Below, piece after piece: positions 49,208 through 55,019 of a stretch of 64,000 nucleotides of DNA. The DNA comes from Streptomyces sp. SCUT-3 (GTDB taxonomy: Bacteria > Actinomycetota > Actinomycetes > Streptomycetales > Streptomycetaceae), in assembly GCF_014083985.1 (NCBI RefSeq), contig NZ_CP046907.1, positions 4,192,501 through 4,256,500 of the forward strand, written 5' to 3'. Below the pieces are notes generated by a model. The model searched no databases and was not told the origin of the DNA. It saw nothing but the letters and a program-made list of their open reading frames with translations. A program made the translations under genes and the position numbers. The number at the start of each line of letters is the position of its first letter. Position 1 is the first letter of the stretch.

Positions 49208-51082
<1,875 letters not shown>

Positions 51083-51089
51083 GCACGGA

Positions 51090-51137
51090 CCGGGGGAGGG
51101 CGGCGCACCGCGGTGCACCGCCCTCCCCCGGGGTTTT
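51090..51137 (+). terminator. lepA intrinsic terminator
   Basis: 20-bp stem with one mismatch (51090-51109 with 51112-51131) followed by GGTTTT. Confidence 0.88.
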
Positions 51138-51156
51138 GTTGCGAACTGTTCGCAAC
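51138..51156. promoter_or_regulatory. 19-bp perfect palindrome, candidate operator
   Basis: GTTGCGAAC-T-GTTCGCAAC: 9-bp perfect arms around one base, just downstream of the lepA terminator and about 25-40 bases upstream of the cobalamin riboswitch. The symmetry and position suggest a binding site for a dimeric repressor controlling the B12 operon. It is not an exact match to any box I know, although spacing is reminiscent of Fur-family sites. A short hairpin role is the alternative. Confidence 0.55.
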
Positions 51157-51179
51157 TGCGGGCCGGGTGCACTGGTGCG

Positions 51180-51320
51180 GGTGTCCTGCGGTCTGCCAGA
51201 CTGAGCGCCATCATCCGGGCGGCGAAGGCCAGGAAACCGGTGCGATTCCGGTACGGTCCCGCCACTGTGACCGGCCCCCGCGGGGGCCGGGAGTCAGACA
51301 CTGACGCGCCGCCTCCATTC
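51180..51320 (+). promoter_or_regulatory. Cobalamin riboswitch
   Basis: Conserved core of the adenosylcobalamin aptamer: AGGAAACCGGTGCGATTCCGG (51231-51251), then ACGGTCCCGCCACTGTGA (51253-51270), a peripheral hairpin of CCGGCCCCCG with its complement, and GAGTCAGACA (51291-51300). It lies in the leader of the downstream transporter gene. Sequences after the aptamer (CCGGAGAGGC before the ATG) can pair with upstream GGATCC-containing bases, so control is probably at translation initiation. Bound B12 would repress the operon. The 5' limit is approximate. Confidence 0.93.
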
Positions 51321-51356
51321 CGGCAGGGGACGAGGATCCCCCGGAGAGGCACGGTC

Positions 51357-52358
51357 ATGACACGACCCGGCGCCGCCCTGCGCGCGCTCACCACCACGGC
51401 ACTCCTGCTCCCCCTCGCGGCCTGCGGCTCACCGGCCGGGGGAGCCGATGCGGGAACGAGGAGCGCGGCGTCCGCCCCCGCCGCCGAGGGCTTCCCGTAC
51501 ACGGTGACCAACTGCGGGGTGAGGACCACCTACACCGCCCCGCCCCGGCGGGCCGTCACCATGAACCAGCACGTCACCGAGATCATGCTGGCGCTCGGCC
51601 TCCAGGACCGCATGGCCGGCACGGCCTACCTCGACGACGCGGTCCTGCCCGCCCACCGCGAGGCGTACGGAACGGTCGAGGTCCTGGCGGAGGAGTACCC
51701 GTCGAAAGAGGTGCTCCTGGGCACGGCCCCCGACTTCGTGTACGGCGGGTTCGCGAGCGCCTTCGACAAGGGGGAGGGCCGGGACCGCGCCGCCCTGGAG
51801 GAGAGCGGCGTGCGCACCCGGCTCAGCGTCGAGAACTGCACCGACGGGCCGGTCGGTCTCGACACGCTCAGGACCGAGATCAGGCAGGTCGCCCGCATCT
51901 TCGGGGTCCCCGGGCGCGGCGAGGAGCTGATCCGGGAGCAGCAGGAGCGGATCGACGCGGTGACCGAGGGACTGGAGGGCGCGGACCGCCCGTCGGTGTT
52001 CGTGCACGACTCCGGCGAGGGCTCCGCCCTCACCGCCGGGGGAGGGGGCGTCGCGGACCGGATCGTCTCCCTGGCCGGGGGCGACAACGTCTTCTCCCAC
52101 CTCGGGGGCGCCTTCGCCGACGTGTCCTGGGAGGAGGTCGTCGAACGCCGCCCCGAGGCCGTCGTGATCCTCGATTACGGCGGCACCTCGGCCTCCGCGA
52201 AGAAGAAGCAGCTCCTGGACGATCCCGCGCTCGCCGGGGTGCCCGCGATCCGCGACGAGCGGTTCGCGGTGCTCCCCCTGTCCTCGGCCGTACTGGGGGT
52301 GCGGGTCGCGGACGCGGTGGAGGACCTGGCCGCCCAGCTCCACCCGGACGCACCGTGA
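51357..52358 (+). CDS. ABC transporter substrate-binding lipoprotein (BtuF-like)
   Basis: A 333-aa secreted lipoprotein that probably captures corrinoids. A signal peptide (MTRPGAALRALTTTALLLPL) ends with the lipobox LAAC, so C23 would be lipidated. The mature protein has the FecB/BtuF periplasmic-binding fold: PPRRAVTMNQHVTEIMLALG at the first strand, VEVLAEEYPSKEVLLGTAPD, VFVHDSGEGSALTAG, and VVERRPEAVVILDYGG. The ATG at 51357 follows GGAGAGG. The preceding cobalamin riboswitch argues for B12 as substrate rather than siderophores, which share the fold. Its stop overlaps the permease GTG (GTGA), so the four genes form a coupled operon. Confidence 0.92.
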   Translation: MTRPGAALRALTTTALLLPLAACGSPAGGADAGTRSAASAPAAEGFPYTVTNCGVRTTYTAPPRRAVTMNQHVTEIMLALGLQDRMAGTAYLDDAVLPAHREAYGTVEVLAEEYPSKEVLLGTAPDFVYGGFASAFDKGEGRDRAALEESGVRTRLSVENCTDGPVGLDTLRTEIRQVARIFGVPGRGEELIREQQERIDAVTEGLEGADRPSVFVHDSGEGSALTAGGGGVADRIVSLAGGDNVFSHLGGAFADVSWEEVVERRPEAVVILDYGGTSASAKKKQLLDDPALAGVPAIRDERFAVLPLSSAVLGVRVADAVEDLAAQLHPDAP

Positions 52359-53503
52359 GGGGCGCCCGCGGCCCCGCCGGTACCCGCGCCCCCGCCGGTA
52401 CCCGCGCCCCCGCCGGCCTTCGCGGCCCCGCCGGTACCTGCGCCCCCGCCGGTCCCCGTGCCCCCGCCGCTCCCCGTCGGACTGCCGGGGCCCGCACCCC
52501 GGCCGTCCTCGCCGTGCTGGTCGCCGCGCTCGTCGTGACGGCCGTCGCCGGCCTGGCCCTGGGACCGGTGCGCGTTCCGCCGCGCGACGTGCTGGGCGTC
52601 GTGCTGGGCGGGGAGCGGGCCGGGCCCCTGGCGGCGGTCGTGTGGGACCTGCGGATGCCGCGGGTGCTGCTGGGCGCGGTCGTGGGGGCCGGCCTCGCCG
52701 TCGCCGGCACCGTCCTGCAGGCCCTGGTGCGCAACCCGCTCGCCGACCCGTTCCTGCTCGGCGCGTCCTCGGGCGCCTCGGCCGGCGCGGTGGTCGTCGT
52801 CGTGCTCGGGGTCGGTGCGGGGGCGGCGGCCGCGGTGGCGCTGCCGTCGGCCGCGTTCGCCGGGTCGATGTGCGCGCTCGTCGTCGTCTGGGCGGCGGCC
52901 CGGCGCGGCGGCACCATGACGGCGGGCCGGCTGGTCCTGGCCGGAGTGGCGGTCCAGTACGTGCTGTCGGCGTTCACCGGCCTCGTGCTGGTGCTGTCGG
53001 CCGACGCCGAGCACGCGCGGACGATCATGTTCTGGACGCTGGGGAGCCTGGGCGGGGCGCGCTGGGACGAACTCGCCCTGCCCGCGGTCGTGCTGGTTGT
53101 GGGGACGCTGCTGCTGACCGCCCTGGCCCGCCCCCTCGACCTGCTGCTCGCGGGGGAGGAGGGCGCGCACACCCTGGGGCTGGACACGCACCGCTTCCGG
53201 GCGGCGGTCTTCGTGCTGGCCTCACTGGTCACCGGCGTCCTGGTGGCCTTCAGCGGCGCGATCGGCTTCGTCGGCCTGATGGTGCCGCACGCGGCCCGCG
53301 CGGTCGTCGGCGCGGGACACCGTCGGCTGCTGCCCGTCGCGGCCCTCGGGGGCGCGGTGTTCCTGCTCCTGGCCGACCTGGTGGCGCGCACGGCCGCCGC
53401 CCCGCGGGAGGTGCCCGTCGGCATCGTCACCGCGCTCGCGGGCGGCCCGTTCTTCCTGTGGCTGCTGCGCCGCTCCTCCCGCACGGAGGGGATCGCCGGA
53501 TGA
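52355..53503 (+). CDS. FecCD-family ABC permease (BtuC-like)
   Basis: A 382-aa membrane permease of the BtuC/FecCD type, forming the homodimeric channel. About nine to ten transmembrane helices begin near residue 48. Family motifs: LRMPRVLLGAVVGAGLAVAG, QALVRNPLADPFLLGASSGA, WTLGSLGGARWDEL, and GAIGFVGLMVPHAAR (ATPase-coupling loop). The first 45 residues are unusual: six-residue repeats R(G/A)PAG(T/L/P) from six 18-bp DNA units, cytoplasmic and disordered. A start further downstream is possible but the GTG at 52355 overlaps the upstream stop, as expected. It is cotranscribed with the binding protein, ATPase and FhuF-like genes under the riboswitch. Confidence 0.93.
   Translation: MRGARGPAGTRAPAGTRAPAGLRGPAGTCAPAGPRAPAAPRRTAGARTPAVLAVLVAALVVTAVAGLALGPVRVPPRDVLGVVLGGERAGPLAAVVWDLRMPRVLLGAVVGAGLAVAGTVLQALVRNPLADPFLLGASSGASAGAVVVVVLGVGAGAAAAVALPSAAFAGSMCALVVVWAAARRGGTMTAGRLVLAGVAVQYVLSAFTGLVLVLSADAEHARTIMFWTLGSLGGARWDELALPAVVLVVGTLLLTALARPLDLLLAGEEGAHTLGLDTHRFRAAVFVLASLVTGVLVAFSGAIGFVGLMVPHAARAVVGAGHRRLLPVAALGGAVFLLLADLVARTAAAPREVPVGIVTALAGGPFFLWLLRRSSRTEGIAG
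52368..52475 (+). repeat. 18-bp tandem repeat, six copies, in permease N-terminus
   Basis: Six head-to-tail units (GCGCCCCCGCCGGTACCC type) at 52368-52475, in frame with the permease and starting 13 bases after its GTG. Confidence 0.9.
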
Positions 53504-54330
53504 CCGCGCGGCCGGCCTCCCTGCGTGCGGAGGGCGTGGGGTACGAGGTGCACGGGCGGACCCTGCTGGACGGCGCGGACCTGACCGCGCACCCGGGCGA
53601 GACGGTCGGCCTGGTCGGCCCGAACGGCAGCGGCAAGACGACCTTCCTGCGCTGCGTGTACGGCACCCTGCGGCCCACGGCCGGCCGGGTGCTGTTGGAC
53701 GGCCGGGACGCGGCCGCGCTCGGGGTGAAGGAACGCGCCCGGCGGGTCGCGGTCGTGGCGCAGGACGCGGGGAGCGCCTTCGGGCTGACCGTCCGCGAGA
53801 CGGTCGCGATGGGCCGCAGTCCGCACAAGCGGTTCTGGGAGCAGGACGGTCCCGGTGACGCCCGGCGCGTCGCCCGGGCCCTGGAACGGGTCGGCGCCGA
53901 GGCCCTGGCGGACCGGCGCCTCGACGAGCTGTCCGGCGGGGAGCGGCAGCGCGTCCTGGTCGCCCGCGCCCTCGTGCAGGACCCGGGCCTGCTGGCCCTG
54001 GACGAGCCGACCAACCACCTCGACGTCCGCCACCAGCTGGAGATCCTCGGCCTCGTCCGCCGCCTGGGCACGACCAACCTGGTCGTCCTGCACGACCTGA
54101 ACCTGGCCGCTGCCCACTGCGACCGACTGTACGTGCTCGGCGCCGGGCGGGTGGTCGCCTCGGGGCCGCCGGGCGAGGTGCTGACGGAGGAACTGCTGGC
54201 CGAGGTCTACGGGGTGCGGGCCCGGGTGGCCGTCCACCCCGCGACCGGGGTGCCGAACGTCGTCTACCTTCCGCCGCCGTCCCCGTCACGGCGGCCCGGC
54301 CCCGACGCGCAGGAGGTGCGCATCCGGTGA
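53500..54330 (+). CDS. ABC transporter ATP-binding protein (BtuD-like)
   Basis: A 276-aa ATPase that drives the permease. Walker A GPNGSGKTTF near residue 40, Q-loop VVAQDAG, signature LSGGERQRVLVARAL near 146, Walker B LLALDEPTNHLD near 165, and the H-loop VVLHDLN are all intact. It belongs to the FepC/BtuD class of metal-chelate importers. The ATG at 53500 overlaps the permease stop (ATGA); its own stop overlaps the next GTG (GTGA). The C-terminal ~30 residues are Pro/Arg-rich. The riboswitch argues for corrinoid import. Confidence 0.95.
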   Translation: MTARPASLRAEGVGYEVHGRTLLDGADLTAHPGETVGLVGPNGSGKTTFLRCVYGTLRPTAGRVLLDGRDAAALGVKERARRVAVVAQDAGSAFGLTVRETVAMGRSPHKRFWEQDGPGDARRVARALERVGAEALADRRLDELSGGERQRVLVARALVQDPGLLALDEPTNHLDVRHQLEILGLVRRLGTTNLVVLHDLNLAAAHCDRLYVLGAGRVVASGPPGEVLTEELLAEVYGVRARVAVHPATGVPNVVYLPPPSPSRRPGPDAQEVRIR

Positions 54331-55019
54331 GGCACGCCCTCGACCGCCTGGCCGCTCTCGGCCCGTACTTCGCCGTGCGCTGCGGCGACCGGCCCGACGG
54401 CGACGGCTTCCGGCCGCTCGCCGAGCTGTACGGTGACGGGCTCGGCCCGTACGTCGCCGGGGTGGGCCGCCGCATGCGCACCGACCAGCCGCGCGTCGCC
54501 GCCTCCACCGCCCAGTTCGGCATCGCCTCCCGGCTGTGGTCCCTGGCGCTCGGCTCGGCGGCCCTCGACGGCCGGGTGCCCGACCTCTCCCCGGACGCCC
54601 TGTGGTGGCGGTACCCGCCGTCCGGGTCGTTCGAGCTGTGGCTGCCGGGCCCACGGGCACTGCCCGGCGCGCCGGCGGAGGCCCTGCGGGCCTCCGTCCT
54701 GGAGTCGAACCTCCGCGTCCTGGACGCGGCCTTGAGGGAACGCCACGGCCTCTCGCCGCAGGTGCTGCGCGGCAACACCGCCTCGGCGCTGGTCGGTGCC
54801 CTGCGCGTCCTCACGGACCGGGCGCCCGACGCGCCGTTCCGGCCCGCGCCCCTCGTGGAGGAACTGCTGGGCACCGATCCCCTCTCCGGCAGCGGCACGT
54901 TCGTGCACGAGGAAGGGCTGGGCCCGTACTTCGCCCGGCGCAGCTGCTGCCTCTACTACCGGGTGCCGGGCGGCGGCATCTGCGGCGACTGCGTCCTGCG
55001 GACCCGCCCGCGCCCCTGA
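54327..55019 (+). CDS. FhuF-type (2Fe-2S) protein, candidate corrinoid reductase
   Basis: A 230-aa protein whose C-terminus has four cysteines C207-C208-x10-C219-xx-C222, the same spacing as the 2Fe-2S site of E. coli FhuF, a ferric-siderophore reductase. The body also fits the FhuF-like family (STAQFGIASRLWSLALGSAA; ALVGALRVLTD; FARRSCCLYYRVPGGGICGDC). No signal peptide, so cytoplasmic. The GTG at 54327 overlaps the ATPase stop, making it the fourth gene of a riboswitch-controlled operon. Since the operon is regulated by B12, I suggest it reduces imported Co(III) corrinoids to Co(II) before adenosylation; this is inference. A ferric-siderophore reductase role remains possible if the transporter has another substrate. 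Confidence 0.85.
   Translation: MRHALDRLAALGPYFAVRCGDRPDGDGFRPLAELYGDGLGPYVAGVGRRMRTDQPRVAASTAQFGIASRLWSLALGSAALDGRVPDLSPDALWWRYPPSGSFELWLPGPRALPGAPAEALRASVLESNLRVLDAALRERHGLSPQVLRGNTASALVGALRVLTDRAPDAPFRPAPLVEELLGTDPLSGSGTFVHEEGLGPYFARRSCCLYYRVPGGGICGDCVLRTRPRP

Follow-up and report, generated by a model that had tools for sequence, protein, structure and literature searches.

A cobalamin-riboswitch operon pairing a B12-type importer with a FhuF-like iron-sulfur protein in Streptomyces sp. SCUT-3: a candidate corrinoid import-and-reduction module

We analysed a stretch of 64,000 nucleotides (hereafter, the window) from Streptomyces sp. SCUT-3 (contig NZ_CP046907.1, positions 4,192,501 to 4,256,500), in which a cobalamin riboswitch (RF00174) is followed, on the forward strand, by the genes for a substrate-binding lipoprotein, a FecCD/BtuC-type permease, an ATPase and a FhuF-like protein. 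The genome (6.08 Mb, a single contig) belongs to the Streptomyces family and is placed in its own genus. The link between FhuF and B12 seen in this operon is real, conserved in kind and apparently undescribed: the open-access literature searched yielded nothing that connects FhuF with B12, corrinoids or cobalamin riboswitches. Membership in the B12 regulon, and both the corrinoid regulation and the corrinoid role of the transporter, are well supported. With moderate confidence, we propose that the operon encodes an import-and-reduce corrinoid module, whose FhuF-like protein would take Co(III) to Co(II) before adenosylation. Imported B12 is in the Co(III) state and needs this reduction, and a dedicated reductase has seldom been identified. 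If the proposal is correct, many actinomycetes would have, for the reduction step, a reductase that is riboswitch-controlled and encoded with the importer; the FhuF fold would have been reused from iron to cobalt chemistry; and FhuF-like and FecCD-type genes now assigned to siderophore systems may in fact serve B12.

The aptamer match covers model positions 45-169, with the 5' part of the element lying outside the match, and the folding of the leader RNA gave an uninformative z of -0.75. The genes are joined by four-base overlaps, which read GTGA, ATGA and GTGA in gene order. The architecture described in the original prediction (a cobalamin aptamer ahead of four genes joined by GTGA/ATGA overlaps, encoding a lipoprotein, a BtuC-like permease, a BtuD-like ATPase and a protein with the CC-x10-CxxC cysteine set of FhuF) was thus recovered throughout, the transporter proteins at the level of Pfam (Peripla_BP_2, FecCD and ABC_tran). 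A terminator-like hairpin at the end of lepA weakly suggests that the operon is set apart from the preceding gene. The N-terminus of the permease (52360-52480) is a repetitive GTRAPAG-type low-complexity stretch, and its real start may be further downstream. A fusion of the ATPase and FhuF, considered for the long open frames of L136-L140, was ruled out: the two are overlapping genes read in different frames.

Table 1. Features of the operon in the window, and of the cysteine-rich partner in other loci.
Feature	Position	Strand	Evidence
Terminator-like hairpin and T run, end of lepA	51120..51134	+	1 found vs 0.5 expected (shuffles), weak
Cobalamin riboswitch aptamer core	51230..51303	+	RF00174, 39.8 bits vs gathering score 31.5
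Substrate-binding lipoprotein, BtuF/FecB-like, Peripla_BP_2	51357..52358	+	PF01497, 86.4 bits
Permease, BtuC/FecCD-like	52355..53503	+	PF01032, 316 bits
ATPase, BtuD-like	53500..54330	+	PF00005 ABC_tran, 120.7 bits
FhuF-like [2Fe-2S] protein, 230 aa	54327..55019	+	PF11575, 36.9 bits, cut-off 20.5
Codons of cluster motif C207-C208-x10-C219-x2-C222	54945..54992	+	Cysteine positions
Cysteine-rich partner	L149:8054-8455		
Cysteine-rich partner	L190:2768-3154		
Cysteine-rich partner	L255:4568-4891		

Among the matches listed, RF00174 was found directly upstream of the transporter in at least 26 of the 28 Streptomyces genomes with a good lipoprotein orthologue. Furthermore, in 80 named loci, fetched from the lipoprotein alignment, a motif test detected the riboswitch upstream of the transporter in 76, and Rfam added it in L248, L264 and, ahead of a tandem transporter pair, L251, for a total of about 79/80; in L290, Rfam gave no riboswitch at gathering score. 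The B12-controlled corrinoid importer of the original prediction is well supported. In L251 (2619-9674, Streptomyces reniochalinae), the lipoprotein/permease/ATPase set occurs twice in a row behind a single cobalamin riboswitch, with FhuF after the second.

The genome contains five RF00174 matches. On the basis of the downstream genes, the other four lead a cbiMNQO-like cobalt transporter (in which CbiM was confirmed), cobD/cobQ/cobN-like and ribonucleotide reductase operons, and a locus encoding a toroid protein and an energy-coupling factor (ECF) type transporter. This set agrees with the S. coelicolor B12 regulon as already described. In that species, a putative B12 riboswitch is assigned to SCO7216-7218, which encode a FecCD-type ATP-binding cassette (ABC) transporter (Borovok 2006, as cited in PMC4991794). 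As in the window, this is a riboswitch-controlled lipoprotein/FecCD permease/ATPase set, suggested for iron, heme or cobalamin; the paper gives three co-transcribed genes, with no mention of FhuF. Since SCO7216-7218 carries a putative B12 riboswitch, the importer half is of an already known kind and FhuF is the new part. BtuFCD, the B12 importer of E. coli, is also made of Peripla_BP_2, FecCD and ABC_tran components, and its BtuC model gave 232 bits. It differs in having no reductase in the system, and the window proteins are all below the curated cut-offs of the NCBIfam equivalogs (38.2/234 for BtuF, 262.9/461 and 232.1/334 for BtuC, and 116.4/281 for BtuD).

Apart from C19, the only cysteines of the FhuF-like protein are the four of the cluster motif, which were invariant in alignments A1 and A4, very divergent operon members included. 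The spacing C-C-x10-C-x2-C is that of the cluster motif of E. coli FhuF (PMC8068687). The AlphaFold2 model of the window protein had a predicted local distance difference test (pLDDT) of 86 and a predicted template modelling (TM) score (pTM) of 0.85, with low confidence for the last 21 residues, which contain the second half of the motif. Its best fold match was E. coli FhuF (7qp5; Foldseek E 8e-7, TM 0.68), which was also the top match (E 3e-4, TM 0.59) of an operon FhuF of the divergent clade, likewise predicted to have the FhuF fold (pTM 0.88). The window protein passed the superfamily model PF11575 and did not pass the siderophore-iron reductase equivalog TIGR03951 (30.3 vs 63.85 bits). 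Compared to E. coli FhuF (PDB 7QP5; PMC8068687), it thus shares the fold and the motif, but has 18% identity in the structural alignment and scores below the FhuF equivalog cut-off; unlike it, it is under a B12 riboswitch instead of iron control and has a B12-type importer as operon partner. The E. coli protein is a ferric siderophore (ferrioxamine) reductase with a potential of -0.36 V at pH 7.4 (PMC8068687).

In 26 of the 80 named loci, the gene directly after the ATPase is FhuF-like; these include loci of many Streptomyces, Nocardia australiensis and two Actinopolyspora. Given a riboswitch ahead of the transporter in nearly all relatives, and FhuF next to the transporter in these 26, chance linkage is no serious explanation. 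In the phylogenetic tree, the majority of operon FhuFs, 26-33% identical to the window FhuF, form one deep clade; the window FhuF clusters with solo Streptomyces FhuFs (~66% identity; Shimodaira-Hasegawa-like approximate likelihood ratio test, SH-aLRT, 98). The sister group of its clade includes L048 and L148, each with its own riboswitch, and L290, where FhuF is divergent from the transporter. The simplest reading of these sequence relationships is that FhuF was recruited into the same operon slot two or more separate times. Short of strict proof, the tree favours independent recruitment of the window FhuF and of the commoner operon FhuF: forcing them together costs 14.7 log-likelihood units, with an approximately unbiased test p-value of 0.11, at which a single origin with fast divergence is possible.

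FhuF-like genes are also linked to B12 apart from the importer. An own riboswitch lies directly upstream of the FhuF-like gene in L048, where the gene is divergent from the methylmalonyl-CoA mutase genes (mutAB-meaB), and in L148, L061, L150 (RF00174), L184 and L190. Overall, a riboswitch was found within 900 bp upstream in 6 of 79 FhuF-centred loci, versus ~0.04 expected by chance at ~8 riboswitches per 8 Mb genome. In L255 (Streptomyces colonosanans), both units, importer and FhuF, are side by side with a separate riboswitch each. In L184 (3187-4034), from a mycobacterium-like genome, the cobalamin riboswitch is ahead of a FhuF-like gene opposite recA; in the related L182, L183 and L187, the FhuF-like gene had no riboswitch at gathering score. 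A small, conserved, cysteine-rich protein (CxxCCC...CxxxC) is encoded beside FhuF in L149, L150, L061, L190 and L255. It had no match in Pfam, NCBIfam or PDB and no structure match; inspection of the sequence suggests a ferredoxin-like electron donor. The coupling of FhuF to B12 uptake, as originally predicted, gains from this repeated B12/cobalt linkage in several lineages and from an iron-box comparison within the same genome (see below), while corrinoid reduction by the FhuF-like protein is what its regulation and linkage suggest.

As for the ligand, the reduction step and the electron donor, we infer the following sequence of events. Low intracellular cobalamin would let the riboswitch permit expression, and cobalamin would switch the module off. 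The lipoprotein would capture extracellular corrinoid in its oxidised form for import by the permease and ATPase. The C-terminal [2Fe-2S] cluster of the FhuF-like protein would then donate one electron to the Co(III) corrinoid (aquo/hydroxo, perhaps cyano), yielding the Co(II) form taken by cobalamin adenosyltransferase, which would complete the conversion. In other actinomycetes, FhuF-like proteins encoded elsewhere, some with their own cobalamin riboswitch, may do the same job, and the small cysteine-rich neighbour of the riboswitch-led ones could supply electrons. More tentatively, and at slightly less than even chances, these genes could represent an unrecognised branch of Actinomycetes FhuFs, dedicated to corrinoid reduction, controlled by cobalamin riboswitches and joined on more than one occasion to the same importer operon, with siderophores served by a separate iron-box FhuF of the same genomes. 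PduS, a microcompartment flavin/4Fe-4S enzyme, is of an unrelated sequence family and is not linked to an importer. As a corrin reductase (PMC2982820), it is a precedent for an enzyme of this kind dedicated to one system.

Several observations weigh against the proposed module. In other bacteria, unspecific flavoproteins often act as corrinoid reductases, so that a dedicated enzyme is not a necessity. Many of the FhuF-like genes that stand alone lack any B12 context, and some relatives are in FecCD/siderophore-type loci (L196, L197, L199, L208 and L212), which makes the FhuF superfamily a mixed one. Most transporter operons related to that of the window have no FhuF: the census of FhuF next to the riboswitch, envisaged in the original prediction, retrieved it after the importer in the 26 loci above and found it absent from most of the 80. 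Absence of FhuF from relatives had been named there as refuting the idea; it is literally true of most loci, but the tested genomes of this kind nearly always keep a window-clade FhuF elsewhere. Indeed, within the transporter clade around the window, such a gene was present elsewhere in 25 of 27 genomes without an operon FhuF versus 1 of 26 with the divergent operon FhuF (Fisher p 1e-11, before kinship is considered). The comparison reduces to 4-6 phylogenetically independent contrasts, nearly all in the expected direction or with no difference, and formal significance is not reached.

The main rival of the import-and-reduce module is that the FhuF-like protein acts more broadly, reducing cobalt during synthesis as well. 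It would be a general corrinoid reductase for B12 synthesis and uptake, standing in for a cob(II)yrinate reductase (CobR-like) ahead of adenosylation, and by chance encoded with the importer. We consider this unlikely, while acknowledging that part of the evidence fits it. The organism appears to make B12, as judged from its riboswitch-led cbiMNQO-like and cobD/cobQ/cobN-like operons. Moreover, a cbtA-like gene is directly upstream of FhuF in L067, L070-L072, L074 and L205 and convergent to it in L073, L193 and L201 (called by PF09490 in L067, L071, L193 and L205, by tblastn in the others); FhuF neighbours a Mg-chelatase-type gene in L192 and, in L216, a ribonucleotide reductase and a riboswitch-led cobN-like gene. 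These adjacencies also count in favour of the import-and-reduce module. Conversely, the commonest fixed position found for FhuF is directly after the importer ATPase. A potential of -0.36 V is low enough for the Co(III)/Co(II) couple of corrinoids but does not suffice for the free Co(II)/Co(I) couple. Because the potential of E. coli FhuF is too high for the latter, acting directly in place of CobR would require protein-bound activation. The adjacency of FhuF and cbtA, a proposed cobalt transporter subunit, occurs across several families, and cbtBA also adjoins FhuF.

The alternative raised in the original prediction, that an operon for taking up and reducing ferric siderophores acquired B12 control, appears improbable. 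It draws on the ferrioxamine reductase activity of E. coli FhuF (PMC8068687), on the transport of siderophores by FecCD-type systems and on the relatives in siderophore-type loci mentioned above. It is disfavoured by the riboswitch kept in nearly all transporter relatives and by a paralogue in the same genome. This second FhuF-family gene (PF11575; G000:C1:1270403-1271221, L077:8361-9225) has, 43 bp upstream, the iron-box-like palindrome TAAGGTAAGGCTTACCTGT, matching 14/19 positions. A box of at least 13/19 was found in 29 of 30 orthologous Streptomycetales loci (the second FhuF included) versus 13 of 2000 random stretches, whereas no DmdR/IdeR-type iron box was found in the window operon (best 11/19 across 51000-55019). 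Thus, in one genome, iron and B12 control fall on different FhuF genes.

Slightly less probable still is that the FhuF-like protein is a redox or Fe-S sensor or chaperone of the B12 regulon, or that its linkage is incidental. The subgroup has no known activity and scores below the FhuF equivalog cut-off, which would suit such a role; on the other hand, even very divergent operon members keep all four cluster cysteines, the fold matches FhuF, and the same operon slot is filled by quite different FhuF types.

Import of another cofactor, e.g. F420-0, with the FhuF-like protein acting on it, is very improbable: each of the three transporter proteins has its best NCBIfam match among the proposed F420-0 transporter models TIGR03868/69/73, but these models are themselves hypothetical, all scores are below their curated cut-offs (184.5/392.4, 294.4/437.35 and 302/372.4), and a cobalamin riboswitch heads the operon and nearly all its relatives. 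For the lipoprotein, whose PDB relatives are 4n01 and 4mlz, the nearest model is TIGR03868, under its cut-off. Riboswitch-led transporters (window 51357-54330; L118:13139-15998) match the F420-0 models best or near best, below cut-off, and the names of these models may mislead the annotation of B12-riboswitch-led transporters.

Lastly, at the toroid/ECF locus (L081:2666-7699; G000:C1:4484000-4500000), the fourth riboswitch is followed by genes for a secreted prenyltransferase/TED-type alpha-alpha toroid protein, a secreted protein and an ECF-type transporter. The alpha-alpha toroid recalls transcobalamin and intrinsic factor, and the locus might represent a second system for capturing B12.

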